The notes under the pieces are model-generated. The model did not search any database. It was given only the letters and a program-made list of their open reading frames with translations, and was not told the origin of the DNA. Position numbers and translations under genes: made by a program. From positions 496,001 to 560,000 of the forward strand of contig CP052876.1 in assembly GCA_020881835.1 (NCBI GenBank): a stretch of DNA of 64,000 nt, written 5' to 3'. Source of the DNA: Kineosporiaceae bacterium SCSIO 59966 (lineage in GTDB: Bacteria; Actinomycetota; Actinomycetes; Actinomycetales; SCSIO-59966). Below, one piece after another: positions 20,327-25,182 of this stretch. Each line of letters begins with the position of its first letter. Position 1 is the stretch's first letter.

Positions 20327-20464
20327 AGACGGGTTGGTGACAGCAAGCCGAGCCTGCGCGCCGTCGTCCTGACCTCCGTCCAGGATGGTACGGACGCACC
20401 GCTGCTGCAAGGGCCTCTCCTACCAGCCTCACCTGCGGGCCGCCTTGGCCGACGGCGGCCGCGA

Positions 20465-20617
20465 GTGACCCGCGTCGACACGAACGTTCTCACCGCGGCT
20501 GCCCGGCTCGCAGACACCAACCACGTCGCTGCGGCGCCCCTGCTCGAGACCCCTGACGAGCCGCTGCTGGTTCCACCCACCGTGCTGGCGGAGGTCTGCT
20601 ACCTCCTCAACGAGTGA
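20465..20617 (+). pseudogene. Truncated PIN-domain (VapC-like) toxin
   Basis: Fifty codons beginning VTRVDTNVLTAAARLADTNH. They carry the first PIN aspartate (VDTNVL) and the conserved PTVLAEVCYLLNE helix with its glutamate, then stop. PIN toxins are about 130 residues, so the last two thirds, with the other catalytic acids, are missing. No continuation was found downstream in another frame. Remnant of a toxin-antitoxin pair. Confidence 0.6.
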
Positions 20618-20787: not shown

Positions 20788-21246
20788 CTACAGGGAGATC
20801 CCTCGGGCGAGGGCGGCGTCGAACAGCGTCCGGGCGACCAGCTCGGCCTTCTCGGTCGCCGCGGCCCCCACCGGCTTTGCCTCGTAGCGGTCCTGGTGAC
20901 GGGCGCGCCGCAGGCGGTCGAACTCCCGCGCTGCCTTCTCCGCCGGCGGCTTGTCGAAGACGGCGCGCAAGTAGCCGCCGAGCGCCTCATGCTGGCCGGG
21001 CCCGTTGGTGGTACGGAAGCCGTACGCCGCCAGCAGCGCCTCGCCCGCGTCGTGGCAGGCGTCGTAGGCGATGCCGTACCTGACGGTGACGCTGGTGAGC
21101 AGCGGCAGTTGGTCCAGGCGCTCCTCGGCCTGGCGCAGGAACGAGACCGCACGCGCGAGGTCTGCGGGCACGACGTCGAGACGCCGGGCCTCGACCAGGG
21201 CGAGGACCGTCGCCTGCTGGGCGCGGGTGAGTGGAGTCAGCGCCAC
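20788..21246 (-). CDS. HEPN-like protein, partner of the MNT gene
   Basis: 152 residues from GTG 21246, overlapping the end of the MNT gene by ten bases. It is all-helical in character, with segments VRYGIAYDACHDAGEALLAA and ARHQDRYEAKP, as in HEPN proteins paired with minimal nucleotidyltransferases. The exact Rx4-6H RNase motif is not clear (R-x5-R-H-x2-R only), so nuclease activity is uncertain. Operon order MNT then HEPN and the overlap support a toxin-antitoxin pair. Confidence 0.6.
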   Translation of the reverse strand: MALTPLTRAQQATVLALVEARRLDVVPADLARAVSFLRQAEERLDQLPLLTSVTVRYGIAYDACHDAGEALLAAYGFRTTNGPGQHEALGGYLRAVFDKPPAEKAAREFDRLRRARHQDRYEAKPVGAAATEKAELVARTLFDAALARGISL

Positions 21247-21821
21247 GGCGGCTCCCCGATCACGGGGACCGCCGGGCCGCTGCGTACGTTGTCCAGGAAC
21301 CCGGAGGACGCGGCGAACTCCTCAGGAGTGAGGATCGTCGGGTTCACGGGACGGTGCACAACGGCCTCGACCCGGGTGCACGCCTCGTAGACCGCGTCCA
21401 CGTCGGGCTCACCGAGCACCATGACGTCGATGTCGTGCGGCGCCGGACCGGCATCCCCGAGCATCCGCGCGGCGAAGGAGCCGTAGAGGAACGCCGACTC
21501 GATCCCGTCGATGCGGCCGAGCTCCTCGGCCAGGACGACCACCGGGCCGGTCGCGATCGCGAGGATCTCGCGCAAAGGGTCCACCAGCGGGCTCTCGTCG
21601 TTGGCGCGGATGAGCCTTGTGCGGCCCACGTGTCGCTCGGCCAGGATGCCGGCATCCAGCAGGCGCGCGACCTCACGGTGTGCGGTCGGGTACGCCAGGC
21701 CGGCCCGCTTGGCCAGGTCGGTGACGCTCAGCTCGTCGCCGGTGAGCAACAAGGTGGAGAGCAGGCGCGCCTGTCCCTCCGACCGGAAGATCGGAGCGAG
21801 AAGCGGGGCCTCGGTTCTCAT
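21237..21821 (-). CDS. Winged-helix + minimal nucleotidyltransferase (MNT) antitoxin-like protein
   Basis: 194 residues from ATG 21821. Residues about 8-75 form an ArsR/MarR-like winged helix (LTGDELSVTDLAKRAGLAYP, then AHREVARLLDAGIL). The C-terminal half is a Pol-beta-type MNT with FLYGSFAARML followed by DIDVMVLG, the GS-x-DxD signature. In known HEPN-MNT pairs the MNT protein AMPylates and silences the HEPN toxin; here the DNA-binding domain could add autoregulation. It has a leaderless promoter. Confidence 0.7.
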   Translation of the reverse strand: MRTEAPLLAPIFRSEGQARLLSTLLLTGDELSVTDLAKRAGLAYPTAHREVARLLDAGILAERHVGRTRLIRANDESPLVDPLREILAIATGPVVVLAEELGRIDGIESAFLYGSFAARMLGDAGPAPHDIDVMVLGEPDVDAVYEACTRVEAVVHRPVNPTILTPEEFAASSGFLDNVRSGPAVPVIGEPPWR

Positions 21822-21864: not shown

Positions 21865-22197
21865 CTACCCCCAGAAGATCGGGTCGCCGCTGCTGCCGAT
21901 GTGGTCCAGGAGATCTTGGACGTTCTTGGTCGGGCGCTTGCGCTTGTACTCGTGGAACTTGAGGTGGCGGTCCCGCCAGTAGATCGCCCACAGGCCGGTC
22001 GACTTCGTGTAGCGCAGCCGTGCGATCGGGAACCGGGTGTGTTCACCGACGCCGTTCCACGGCGGCCGCACCTCGACGATGTCGACGTGTCGGTCGGAGA
22101 CGTCGGCCTCGACCTTGACCTGGTCCCACAGGTGCTCGGGCACGCGCTTCCGCGCCCACAGCCGGATGCGGCGCAGGTCAGTTTCGGGAAGCGCCAT
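21865..22197 (-). CDS. DUF3024-like protein
   Basis: 110 residues from ATG 22197 (GGAAGG upstream). The run LWDQVKVEADVSDRHVDIVE, RPPWNG and FPIARLRYTKSTGLWAIYWR followed by RDRHLKFHEY is typical of the small actinobacterial DUF3024 family, whose function is unknown. It is scattered among islands and defence loci. Its stop lies eight nt before the MNT -35 box, so it is probably transcribed separately. Confidence 0.65.
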   Translation of the reverse strand: MALPETDLRRIRLWARKRVPEHLWDQVKVEADVSDRHVDIVEVRPPWNGVGEHTRFPIARLRYTKSTGLWAIYWRDRHLKFHEYKRKRPTKNVQDLLDHIGSSGDPIFWG

Positions 22198-22249
22198 CAC
22201 ACCTTCCAGCCTGCTCGAGGACAAGACACAGCATCTACCAGCGGGGGGT

Positions 22250-22410: not shown

Positions 22411-23271
22411 ATGGCCACGCAGTTCGAGTTCCGCCTCATCGGCGCGAGCGCGCCCGACGGCGAGCTCGAAGCCGATCATCTTCTCGCCATCGTCGCGAGC
22501 CTGAAGGAGGTCGCGACGAAGATCGGGCGCGTCGAGACCGACGCGGAACCGGTCGGCCGGGCACCGAAACGCACCCAGCGGGTCGCGAAGCTGACCATCG
22601 GGCTGGCTCCCGGGAGCACCACTGTGCTCGCGCGCAGGGCCGGCGCGGGTGACGGCGCTCTGGACTTCGACCTCGCCGACGAACAGGCCTTCGACGAGAA
22701 GTTCACCGCCCTCGTCGAGTCGATCGGCCTCGACCACCGTCCCAGTTGGGTCGATGACTCCCTCTCCCTCGCCGCTGCAGACCTCACCGCGGCCCTGCAG
22801 CAGGCGGCACCCGAGGTCGAGTTCACGGCCGCCGGGAAGGTGTGCCGCCGTTTCAAGACCGAAGCGACCCACCGGGAGACCTGGCGCGTCGACACGCCGT
22901 CGAGTTCGGAATCGGTCACGTTCACCGGGAGGCTCTTCGCGGTGAACCTCAACACGCACCGCCTCCAGGTGCAGGACGACGTCGGCCACCATGTCGCGTT
23001 GCCGAAGGTGTCCAACGACGCCGAGGTGAGCCGGCTCATCGGCAGCTACGTGACGGTGACCGGTGCGCCCGAGCGCGACGCATCGGGACGCCTCACCCAG
23101 ATCCACGATGCCGCCATCGCTGCCGCCCCGGACCCGCTGGGCGGGAGCGTCGTGCCGGCGGCAGTGTCGCTCGACGAGATCCTCGCGAGCGCCCCCGGCC
23201 CGGATATTGACGGCGGGATCGAGCTGACCGACGAGGAGTTCACGGCCTTCCTCGAGGCGGTCCGTGGGTGA
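22411..23271 (+). CDS. Unknown 286-residue protein coupled to a PIN gene; possible large antitoxin
   Basis: Starts at ATG 22411, eight nt after GAGGGAGG. Residues about 165-235 look like a small beta barrel (TFTGRLFAVNLNTHRLQVQD, then YVTVTGAPERDASGRLTQ), OB-like by pattern only. The C-terminal 35 residues are acidic and contain LDEILASAPGPDIDGG, the kind of tail with which antitoxins wrap toxins. The stop overlaps the next gene by four bases. I do not recognise the family. Usual VapB antitoxins are about 80 residues, so this would be unusually large. Confidence 0.55.
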   Translation: MATQFEFRLIGASAPDGELEADHLLAIVASLKEVATKIGRVETDAEPVGRAPKRTQRVAKLTIGLAPGSTTVLARRAGAGDGALDFDLADEQAFDEKFTALVESIGLDHRPSWVDDSLSLAAADLTAALQQAAPEVEFTAAGKVCRRFKTEATHRETWRVDTPSSSESVTFTGRLFAVNLNTHRLQVQDDVGHHVALPKVSNDAEVSRLIGSYVTVTGAPERDASGRLTQIHDAAIAAAPDPLGGSVVPAAVSLDEILASAPGPDIDGGIELTDEEFTAFLEAVRG

Positions 23272-23696
23272 GCGACCCCCAAGCCACAGTGCTCGATAGC
23301 GACGCGTTCAGTCTCCTGTTCGTCAGGCGTGATGCGGCGGATCCCCGGACCGCCGGCTGGCGTCAGCTGCTTGCCGGGCACCGGGTGCTCATCTCGTTCC
23401 AGACCCGGGCCGAACTGCTCGCTGGGGCGATTGCGCGCGGCTGGGGTGAACGGCGGACGAGCGAGCTCCGGGCGATCCTGGATCGGACTCCCACGATCGG
23501 CGTCGACGACGAGGTCATCGACGCCAACGCCACGCTCTACGCGGACTGCCGACGGCTTGGGCACGCACTCCACGCCAGGGAACACACCGCGGATAGGTGG
23601 GTCGCTGCCTGTGCCATTGCGAAGACCACTCCACTACTGGCTGGGGACGGCGTCTACCGGGGCGCTCCAGGACTTTCGCTGCTGATGGGAGGCTGA
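23268..23696 (+). CDS. PIN-domain RNase (VapC-like toxin)
   Basis: 142 residues from GTG 23268, overlapping the preceding stop. PIN domains cut RNA with a Mg-dependent acidic site. Candidate acids are visible in order: LDSDAFSLLF, then TRAELLAGA, then TADRWVAACA, then GDGVYRG. Length is normal, so unlike the fragment at 20465 this copy looks complete. Tight coupling with the upstream gene suggests a toxin-antitoxin operon. Confidence 0.75.
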   Translation: MSDPQATVLDSDAFSLLFVRRDAADPRTAGWRQLLAGHRVLISFQTRAELLAGAIARGWGERRTSELRAILDRTPTIGVDDEVIDANATLYADCRRLGHALHAREHTADRWVAACAIAKTTPLLAGDGVYRGAPGLSLLMGG

Positions 23697-23701
23697 CGCC
23701 C

Positions 23702-25182
23702 GTGTCCGACTCCCGCCGCCTCGTCGACAAGCTCTGGTCCTACTGCAACGTCCTGCGTGACGACGGCGTGGGCGTCATCGAGTACACCGAGCAGCTACGT
23801 ACCTGCTGTTCCTCAAGATGGCGCACGAACGCGCCACCCGGAGGCTGAACCCGCAGCAGATCGTGCCGCCCGAGTACTCCTGGCAGAGGCTCCTCGACGC
23901 CGAAGGCACCGATCTGGAGGTCACCTACACCCAGATCCTGGTTGGCCTTGCACAACAGCCGGGCACCCTTGGCACGATCTTCCGGAAGGCTCAGAACCGG
24001 ATCCAAGACCCGGCCAAGCTCAAACGACTCATCGTCGACCTCATCGACCAGGAGAACTGGTCGGCTTCCGGTACCGACCTCAAGGGAGACGCCTACGAGG
24101 AGCTGCTGTCGAAGGGCGCCTCCGACAAGGGCTCCGGCGCCGGGCAGTACTTCACGCCACGCGAGCTGATCCGGGCGATCGTCGACGTCGTCGACCCCAA
24201 GCCCACCGACACGGTCGTCGATCCTGCCTGCGGCACCGGCGGCTTCCTCCTGGTCGCCCACGAGCACGCCTCCCGCGACGCCGCCAGCCTCACGCCGACC
24301 GAGCGCGAGCACCTGCGCAACGGGTTCGTCACCGGCTACGAGCTGGTCGACGGCACCGCCCGGCTGGCCGCGATGAACCTGCTGCTGCACGGCATCGGGA
24401 CGCCGAACGGCGACTCCCTCATCGACGTCCGCGACTCCCTCATCGCCGACCCCGGGCAGCGCTGGTCCGTGGTACTCACGAACCCGCCCTTCGGTCGCAA
24501 GTCGTCGCTCACCATGGTCGGCGCCGACGGGCGGATCGTGCGCGAAGACCGCGACATCGAGCGCCAGGACTTCGTCGTGACGACGTCCAACAAGCAGCTC
24601 AACTTCCTGCAGCACATCATGACGATCCTCGACATCAACGGTCGCGCCGCAGTCGTCCTGCCCGACAACGTGCTGTTCGAGGGCGGTGCCGGTGAGACGC
24701 TACGCCGCAAGCTGCTCGCCGACTTCGACCTGCACACGATGATCCGGCTCCCCACCGGCATCTGGTACGCCCCCGGGGTGAAGGCCAACGTGCTCTTCTT
24801 CGACAAGAAGCCGGCCGCCGAGCAGCCGTGGACCCAGAAGTTGTGGGTCTACGACTTCCGGACCAACATCCACTTCACTCTCAAGCAGAACCCGCTGCGC
24901 CGGCCGGACCTCGACGACTTCGTGACGTCGTACCTGTCCGGCAAGGACCGCGCGGAGCGGGTGGAGTCCGAGCGTTGGAGATCCTTCGACTACGACGAGC
25001 TCGTGGCGCGCGACAAGGCGAATCTCGACATCACCTGGCTGCGCGACGAGTCGCTCGAGGATGCCGACAACCTGCCGGCACCCGAGATCATCGCCCGCGA
25101 GATCGTCGAGGACCTGACGGCGGCGCTCGCCGAGTTCGAGGGCGTCGCGGCCGCACTCGAAGCCTCGTCCGGCGACTCCTGA
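23702..25182 (+). pseudogene. hsdM: Type I restriction-modification methyltransferase subunit HsdM, frameshifted
   Basis: GTG 23702 opens with SDSRRLVDKLWSYCNVLRDD, the usual HsdM N-terminus, but after IEYTEQL (about 23792) the frame is lost. It continues from 23798 in a +2-shifted frame as YLLFLKMAHERATRRL to the stop at 25182. One missing base within CTACGTAC explains it. The rest is intact: DPACGTGGFLLVAHEHA (SAM motif) and TNPPFGRKSS (NPPF catalytic motif). No hsdS or hsdR is nearby. A broken orphan methyltransferase, or a sequencing error. Confidence 0.85.

Follow-up and report, generated by a model that had tools for sequence, protein, structure and literature searches.

The window analysed here is the whole stretch of 64,000 nucleotides from Kineosporiaceae bacterium SCSIO 59966 (contig CP052876.1, positions 496,001 to 560,000 of the forward strand), and all coordinates below refer to it. 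At 22411-23696 it holds two genes on the plus strand. The first encodes a protein of 286 residues, here called the partner; it opens with ATG at 22411, 8 nt after the end of a GGGAGG stretch, and closes with TGA at 23269-23271. The second encodes a PIN-domain protein and starts with GTG at 23268, the bases GTGA being common to both genes. The coordinates of the original prediction (22411-23271 and 23268-23696), and with them its four-base overlap, are right. The features of the locus are:

21865..22203, minus strand: DUF3024 gene (PADLOC PDC-S43), the left flank common to the window and the Nocardioides locus L002
22270..22323, plus strand: remnant of the 3' end of hsdS, last 17 codons and stop, found by tblastn of the L002 HsdS
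22411..23271, plus strand: large partner, putative sensor-antitoxin of 286 aa, defined by its ORF, start and homologues with a PIN gene downstream
22411..22890, plus strand: N-terminal alpha/beta (ferredoxin-like) domain of the partner, residues 1-160, from an AF2 model
22909..23130, plus strand: predicted OB fold of the partner, residues 167-240, from predicted secondary structure and VIA alignment
23167..23268, plus strand: acidic C-terminal tail of the partner, residues 253-286, proposed PIN-binding antitoxin peptide, from tail-profile matches and its pI
23190..23648, plus strand: recombinant block relative to L002 (partner end and PIN), from an informative-site scan and a jump in dS
23268..23696, plus strand: PIN-domain (VapC-like) putative toxin of 142 aa, from Pfam PF01850 and conserved acids
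23702..25182, plus strand: hsdM, frameshifted near 23796 and open from 23818 (N6_Mtase E 2.7e-62)

A tandem HEPN/MNT-like pair on the minus strand adjoins the locus: a HEPN-domain protein (20788-21246) that matches the PADLOC candidate PDC-M05B (1.9e-70), and a winged-helix and nucleotidyltransferase protein (21237-21821) that matches PDC-M05A (2.4e-106). Further, at 20462-20614 (plus strand) the last part of an ORF corresponds to the beginning of a further PIN domain (PF01850 3-46, E 5.9e-6) and stops early; this is probably a truncated second PIN gene.

The PIN protein of the pair matches PF01850 with an E-value of 1.6e-5, a match above the gathering score, and the NCBIfam VapC model with 1.2e-7, yet under that model's cut-off. 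Its nearest solved sequences are 3dbo chain B and 5k8j chain B (VapC), and one plasmid relative carries a VapC annotation. The candidate catalytic acids are D10, E49, D109 and D127: the first three are kept in all 11 aligned PINs, and of the 10 that extend far enough to include D127, 9 keep it and the Microbacteriaceae locus L003 has N there. Pfam finds no ATPase domain in either protein of the pair.

The partner had been described as a member of no recognised family, and this holds. Its best matches are at chance level in Pfam (0.11), NCBIfam (0.098) and PHROGs (0.23), PADLOC gives none, and the best E-value in a PDB sequence search with the partner profile is 0.9. No known DNA-binding domain is found in Pfam, NCBIfam or PHROGs. 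The structural model of the full protein, built from 8 sequences, has a mean pLDDT of 71.5 and a pTM of 0.50. In it, strands are predicted over residues 169-238 with a helix between the third and the fourth, a five-strand OB topology, and VIA aligns this part with SSB, PriB, RecG and RPA32 folds at Z up to 7.4 over 66-80 residues, a level (Z below 8) that may reflect merely a common arrangement. The OB-like character claimed earlier is a fold prediction from 8 sequences: topology and VIA agree with it, but in Foldseek no match reaches E 0.001 (best 0.014). The OB part has a pI of 5.65 and no excess of basic residues.

A second domain, absent from the original prediction, precedes the OB part. 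Modelled alone, residues 1-166 reach a pLDDT of 77.9 and a pTM of 0.77 and form an alpha/beta domain (1-160). Its PDB matches are weak, many of them ferredoxin-like (best Foldseek E 0.37), and its VIA rows, all with Z below 6, list ferredoxin-like folds, cyclases and Cas proteins, which excludes no family. Over the 8 sequences R40 and P111 are, besides M1, the only invariant positions in this domain. An enzyme active site in the partner had been named as evidence against an antitoxin; none is seen, and as the alpha/beta domain shows no set of conserved polar residues and its PDB matches are weak, an enzymatic partner is not supported. For the body of the partner dN/dS is 0.26 between the window and L002 and 0.17 between the window and L003.

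Comparison with viral predicted structures gives, for the alpha/beta domain, three proteins at E 7.7e-4 to 1e-2, one of them annotated DUF6575. Against a DUF6575 protein the domain alone reaches E 6.6e-4 with probability 27, the whole protein E 0.008 with probability 5. Among the homologues of the partner, the alpha/beta domain of L007 matches PADLOC PDC-M32A (6.4e-6) and that of L015 matches PDC-M63B (2.1e-4); the sole match of the PDC-M63B profile in 89 genomes is the partner of G284 (9.8e-6). Neither the window partner (P0001) nor L008 matches PDC-M32A or PDC-M63B in PADLOC. One DUF6575 protein matches both PD-T4-10_B and PDC-M63B, and the DUF6575 domain (PF20215) has no match in P0001, L007, L008 or L046. 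DUF6575 is present in 1 of 118 genomes, where no PIN was noticed beside it. A link between the N-terminal domain of the partner and a domain used in phage-defence systems is thus probable but unproven, being weak and running via homologues only.

How widespread is the pair? A pattern scan of GTDB species genomes, a method limited to close relatives, located partners in Nocardioides (L002, 85% in the best segment), a Microbacteriaceae MAG (L003, 65%) and an uncultured Arachnia (L004, 62%). Whole-genome searches with the partner hit 1 of 149 genomes of relatives (its own), 4 of 396 in the phylum (its own, G284, G157 and G285), 4 of 394 in the class (its own, G284, G827 and the discarded G847), 2 of 201 in the family of G284 (G284 and the discarded G944) and 2 of 66 in the class of G285 (G285 and G400). 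Distant partners are undercounted in the class and phylum searches, since the best six candidates per genome were scored. Two candidates were excluded before counting: G847 (L016, E 2.4e-4) is antisense of an apparent gene, and G944 (L042, E 6.7e-4) lies in a frame that looks non-coding. By tblastn the window partner was not found in plasmid and phage records, nor the G157 partner in plasmids, and viral contigs gave nothing in three scans with the partner and one with PIN. The count is at least nine partner loci including the window, which is no census.

At 8 of these 9 loci a PIN gene or a remnant of one lies directly 3' of the partner, adjoining or overlapping it. The PIN ORF is uninterrupted in six (the window, L002, L003, L004, G827 and G285), although the PIN of G285 is divergent (PF01850 E 4.1e-8). 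In G157 it is broken by an in-frame stop, and in G284 there is only a short PIN-like start, seen by eye, behind a frameshifted partner end. No recognisable PIN follows the partner in G400. The two genes as chance neighbours can be rejected with this degree of pairing, and the coupling of PIN to a large partner that was predicted from one locus proves to be a recurrent unit. The partner homologue of G400 (L047 4264-5025) is 54% identical to that of G285, has a similar tail ending and is a possible orphan antitoxin.

Residues 244-286 of the partner include nine acidic residues and one basic, giving a pI of 4.05, and the pLDDT is below 50 over most of 244-272, followed by a predicted helix at 274-285. 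The acidic disordered tail of the original prediction is thereby corroborated. The window PIN (P0002) was searched against 197 genomes and matched at 20 places in 17 of them; 19 of these places lie outside the window. Read by eye, 14 of these 19 relatives show an ORF of 53-109 aa immediately before PIN, and there is no clear one in L027, L032, L038, L040 and L041. A mechanical count gives 15 of 19, against 1444 of 4619 (31%) random same-strand positions in the same loci; the extra locus is L027, where the accepted ORF overlaps PIN itself.

Several of these relatives carry a small separate ORF that resembles the tail. When a profile of five tails is compared with 737 ORFs of the PIN-relative loci, the upstream ORFs of L025, L024 and L039 rank first. 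With G157 added as a sixth tail and the set enlarged to 1,500 ORFs, the four best matches are the ORFs upstream of PIN in L025 (E 1.2e-7), L024 (1.3e-5), L039 (0.0084) and L023 (0.071), the first unrelated ORF (0.11) being close behind the fourth. L024 and L025 are near-identical systems with PINs 94% identical, and we count them as one case. By eye, a short ORF of the plasmid pCLP (Mycobacterium celatum) is tail-like, but with the profile it ranks tenth (E 0.75); the ORF of L026 is tail-like by eye only. Up to its stop, the PIN of G157, which is of the large-partner type, shares 43-50% identity with five PINs that follow short ORFs and 33-44% with the five other PINs of the large-partner type in the comparison. 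On a Deinococcus plasmid (L043 1-5375) a relative of the window PIN stands in the order SNF2-AIPR-HTH-ORF-PIN-methyltransferase-ORF-helicase, so that an HTH gene and an ORF of 62 aa precede it and a site-specific DNA methyltransferase follows; with the tail profile the 62-aa ORF shows no likeness to the partner tail.

The tail and PIN also appear to share a history that the body does not. In 60-base windows the body is 80-97% identical between the window and L002 and hsdM 85-100%, while tail and PIN are 43-77% identical. Against G827 the body is 33-63% identical and the tail 72-73%. A three-sequence scan of 839 informative sites gives a statistic of 31, compared with at most 12 in 20,000 permutations, none of which reach it. 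The block begins at partner codon 260, and its right edge falls between about 23648 and 23690. Between the window and L002, dS is 0.237 in the body and 0.267 in hsdM, but 1.60 in the tail (based on 29 codons) and 1.25 in PIN. A PIN that is merely fast-evolving is rejected, as dS itself rises 5-7 fold. On this comparison of sequences, tail and PIN are exchanged together as one cassette between the window and L002. The tail favours G827 by 22 informative sites to 9; within PIN the sites are near-balanced (60 agree with L002 and 67 with G827), so G827 itself is not the donor. Either lineage, that of the window or that of L002, may have received the foreign block.

Since related PINs have a tail-like short ORF, and since tail and PIN form one recombination block, the tail rather than the barrel is the likely antitoxin element. 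It looks like the tail is the antitoxin and the alpha/beta-plus-OB body an addition. This changes what the partner was taken to be: it is placed like an antitoxin gene, as predicted, but the antitoxin element is most probably its last ~30 residues. PIN homologues found regularly without this partner had been expected to speak against the original idea. Taken literally, that is what we find, the large partner being near none of the 19 relatives (flanks of ~1.5 kb), but several of these 19 do carry a small tail-like ORF of their own.

The pair is surrounded by what is left of a type I restriction operon, a point that the original prediction did not mention. The window and L002 are colinear to the left and to the right of the pair, except that the window lacks 4.0 kb with hsdR and nearly all of hsdS; ~65 bp separate the matched stretches. 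The hsdS remnant is identical to the L002 HsdS at 13 of 17 residues, which alone gives E 0.036, but it is colinear with L002 in the DNA. The hsdM gene has 96% amino acid identity to that of L002 and a dN/dS of 0.076, so its frameshift is recent or a sequence error. The partner and PIN ORFs are both intact despite the loss of hsdR and most of hsdS, and an intact pair in a damaged operon suggests that, provided PIN is active, the partner suffices to hold it in check.

Type I hsd operons surround the pair at 4 of the 9 partner loci (the window remnant, L002, G827 and L004), with two types of HsdR. The order is hsdR (EcoEI-type C terminus), hsdS, partner, PIN, hsdM in L002 and G827, and hsdM, hsdS, GIY-YIG/DUF4357, partner, PIN, hsdR (EcoR124-type C terminus) in L004. 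Elsewhere, L003 has a helicase upstream and a TrwC-type relaxase downstream, G285 a recombinase of the phage-integrase family upstream, and G284 an Mrr endonuclease upstream. Just before that Mrr gene, 42 residues (L018 7125-7244) resemble the start of the L002 HsdR (57%, E 1.5e-5); the G284 locus is perhaps another decayed type I operon. There is no hsd match in the stretches of G157 (17 kb), G285 (10.3 kb) and G400 (6.8 kb), so coupling to restriction-modification (RM) is not obligatory.

The gap between hsdS and hsdM can hold other genes. We sampled the best 5 of 64 plasmid records and the best 3 of 34 genomes with HsdM matches, which gives a sketch. The gap contains a GIY-YIG/DUF4357 gene in Streptomyces Alt2, HipA_C-like and HIRAN/Couple_hipA genes in Rhodococcus (two HipA matches, under the Pfam cut-offs), GmrSD in Gemmobacter and a MazE-family antitoxin with Fic/Doc in G597, and it is empty in Vibrio, G546 and G549. 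On a Methylomonas plasmid, a short gene annotated as VapC immediately precedes hsdM, and no hsdS is annotated. This suggests that the hsdS-hsdM gap is a general cargo slot. In the operons L080, L081, L082 and L085 the cargo in this gap is unrelated toxin or restriction genes.

Taken together, the pair is probably a type II-like PIN toxin-antitoxin module with a modular antitoxin, embedded in RM operons and acting as a second line of defence behind restriction. The PIN protein would be an RNase toxin. The partner would be a fusion in which the last ~30 residues are an antitoxin peptide that binds and blocks PIN; that the tail neutralises PIN is what the architecture points to. The alpha/beta and OB body would position or control this peptide, probably as a sensor of nucleic acid or of the condition of the restriction system, and the module would be accessory cargo in a slot of type I restriction operons. 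With the body at rest, the tail would keep PIN silent. If restriction is defeated or abnormal nucleic acid appears, a trigger that is our conjecture, the tail would be freed or the partner lost, and PIN would stop translation. A bolder version is possible but doubtful: a conserved body could serve as a sensor-antitoxin with exchangeable tail-and-PIN cassettes, housed in a toxin slot of type I restriction operons, a PIN-based counterpart of PrrC whose body detects restriction failure or its DNA intermediates and frees the RNase. Swaps would then retarget the toxin, or evade phage antidotes, with the sensor unchanged.

The pair that stays intact after the loss of hsdR and most of hsdS could also be a plain selfish addiction module, whose body merely binds an operator or dimerises for autoregulation, does no sensing, and is found with RM genes through the clustering of defence islands. 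Three of the 9 loci have no hsd genes in the stretches examined, and short tail-like antitoxins seem to be enough for related PINs, as this explanation would have it. However, the body is large, two-domain and conserved, as the dN/dS values above indicate; moreover, the partner has no known DNA-binding domain, and differing toxin types recur in the same operon slot. We regard a plain addiction module as rather unlikely.

The OB part raises a different question, that is, whether the partner is an adaptor for RNA or DNA that brings substrate to PIN in a two-part effector, with the tail as docking peptide and not as inhibitor. OB folds often bind nucleic acid, the VIA rows list SSB, PriB and RPA, and a docking tail would likewise be exchanged together with its PIN. 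This is nevertheless improbable, as the short tail-like ORFs stand in the classic antitoxin position at related PINs, one of which, on a plasmid, is annotated VapC. Least probable of all, and in our view barely credible, is a strict guard of the PrrC type, in which the Hsd complex silences PIN and the partner links the two. The order in L004, hsdM-hsdS-(GIY)-partner-PIN-hsdR with an EcoR124-type HsdR, does resemble prrC in the type IC operon EcoprrI, as far as the latter is described in the available text of PMC3874165. But loci without hsd genes in the examined stretch exist, and the window keeps both ORFs intact without hsdR and most of hsdS. A module in which the partner itself controls PIN is the reading we retain.

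If so, the locus is a natural test case for the step from a toxin-antitoxin pair to an effector under sensor control, as members of one PIN family are found either beside a short tail-like antitoxin or beside a two-domain body that ends in the tail. The exchange of tail plus toxin maps the cognate unit from evolution alone. Further, differing toxins in one slot of restriction operons bear on the proposed coupling of restriction and growth arrest (discussed in the available part of PMC3506569), which is known in detail for few systems, for example PrrC.

Among known systems, the closest is type II VapBC. The window pair has in common with it a PIN protein with conserved acids, an upstream gene in the position of the antitoxin, a 4-base overlap and an acidic C-terminal tail. 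It differs in a partner of 286 aa with no recognised DNA-binding domain and with an alpha/beta and a predicted OB domain, and in that tail and toxin are exchanged as a cassette behind the partner body. No PIN antitoxin with an OB body was found in the literature searched (titles and abstract beginnings, with most subscription journals outside this scope).

The N-terminal domain of partner homologues shows a distant likeness to PDC-M32A and PDC-M63B and thereby touches PD-T4-10, PDC-M32 and PDC-M63. PD-T4-10 is described as a two-gene toxin-antitoxin system that protects against T-even phages (PMC9519451, seen in part); its toxin is the B protein, whereas the window partner lacks the DUF6575 domain. 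For PDC-M63AB the accessible portion of PMC12409345 gives one test, in which there was no defence.

With PrrC the pair shares the location of an RNase-type toxin gene within a type I operon; in L004 that place is between hsdS and hsdR. The gene prrC is embedded in the type I operon EcoprrI according to the available texts of PMC3874165, PMC12707154 and PMC3506569. In contrast, the window has PIN with a separate partner gene and no ABC-ATPase anticodon nuclease architecture, and its pair persists after the loss of hsdR and most of hsdS.

DarT ADP-ribosylates DNA and is a different toxin, yet it too belongs to a toxin-antitoxin pair between hsd genes. DarTG2 is located between hsdS and hsdR of an E. 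coli type I RM system, a site regarded as a potential recombination hotspot in the part of PMC12255303 available; the slot is hsdS-hsdM in L002, G827 and the window. Finally, PIN-GNAT-EVE proteins occur near type I RM systems, with HsdR/M/S operons (PMC7641849, from the accessible text). Here too PIN domains are associated with HsdR/M/S operons, and there they form a single fusion with GNAT and EVE.
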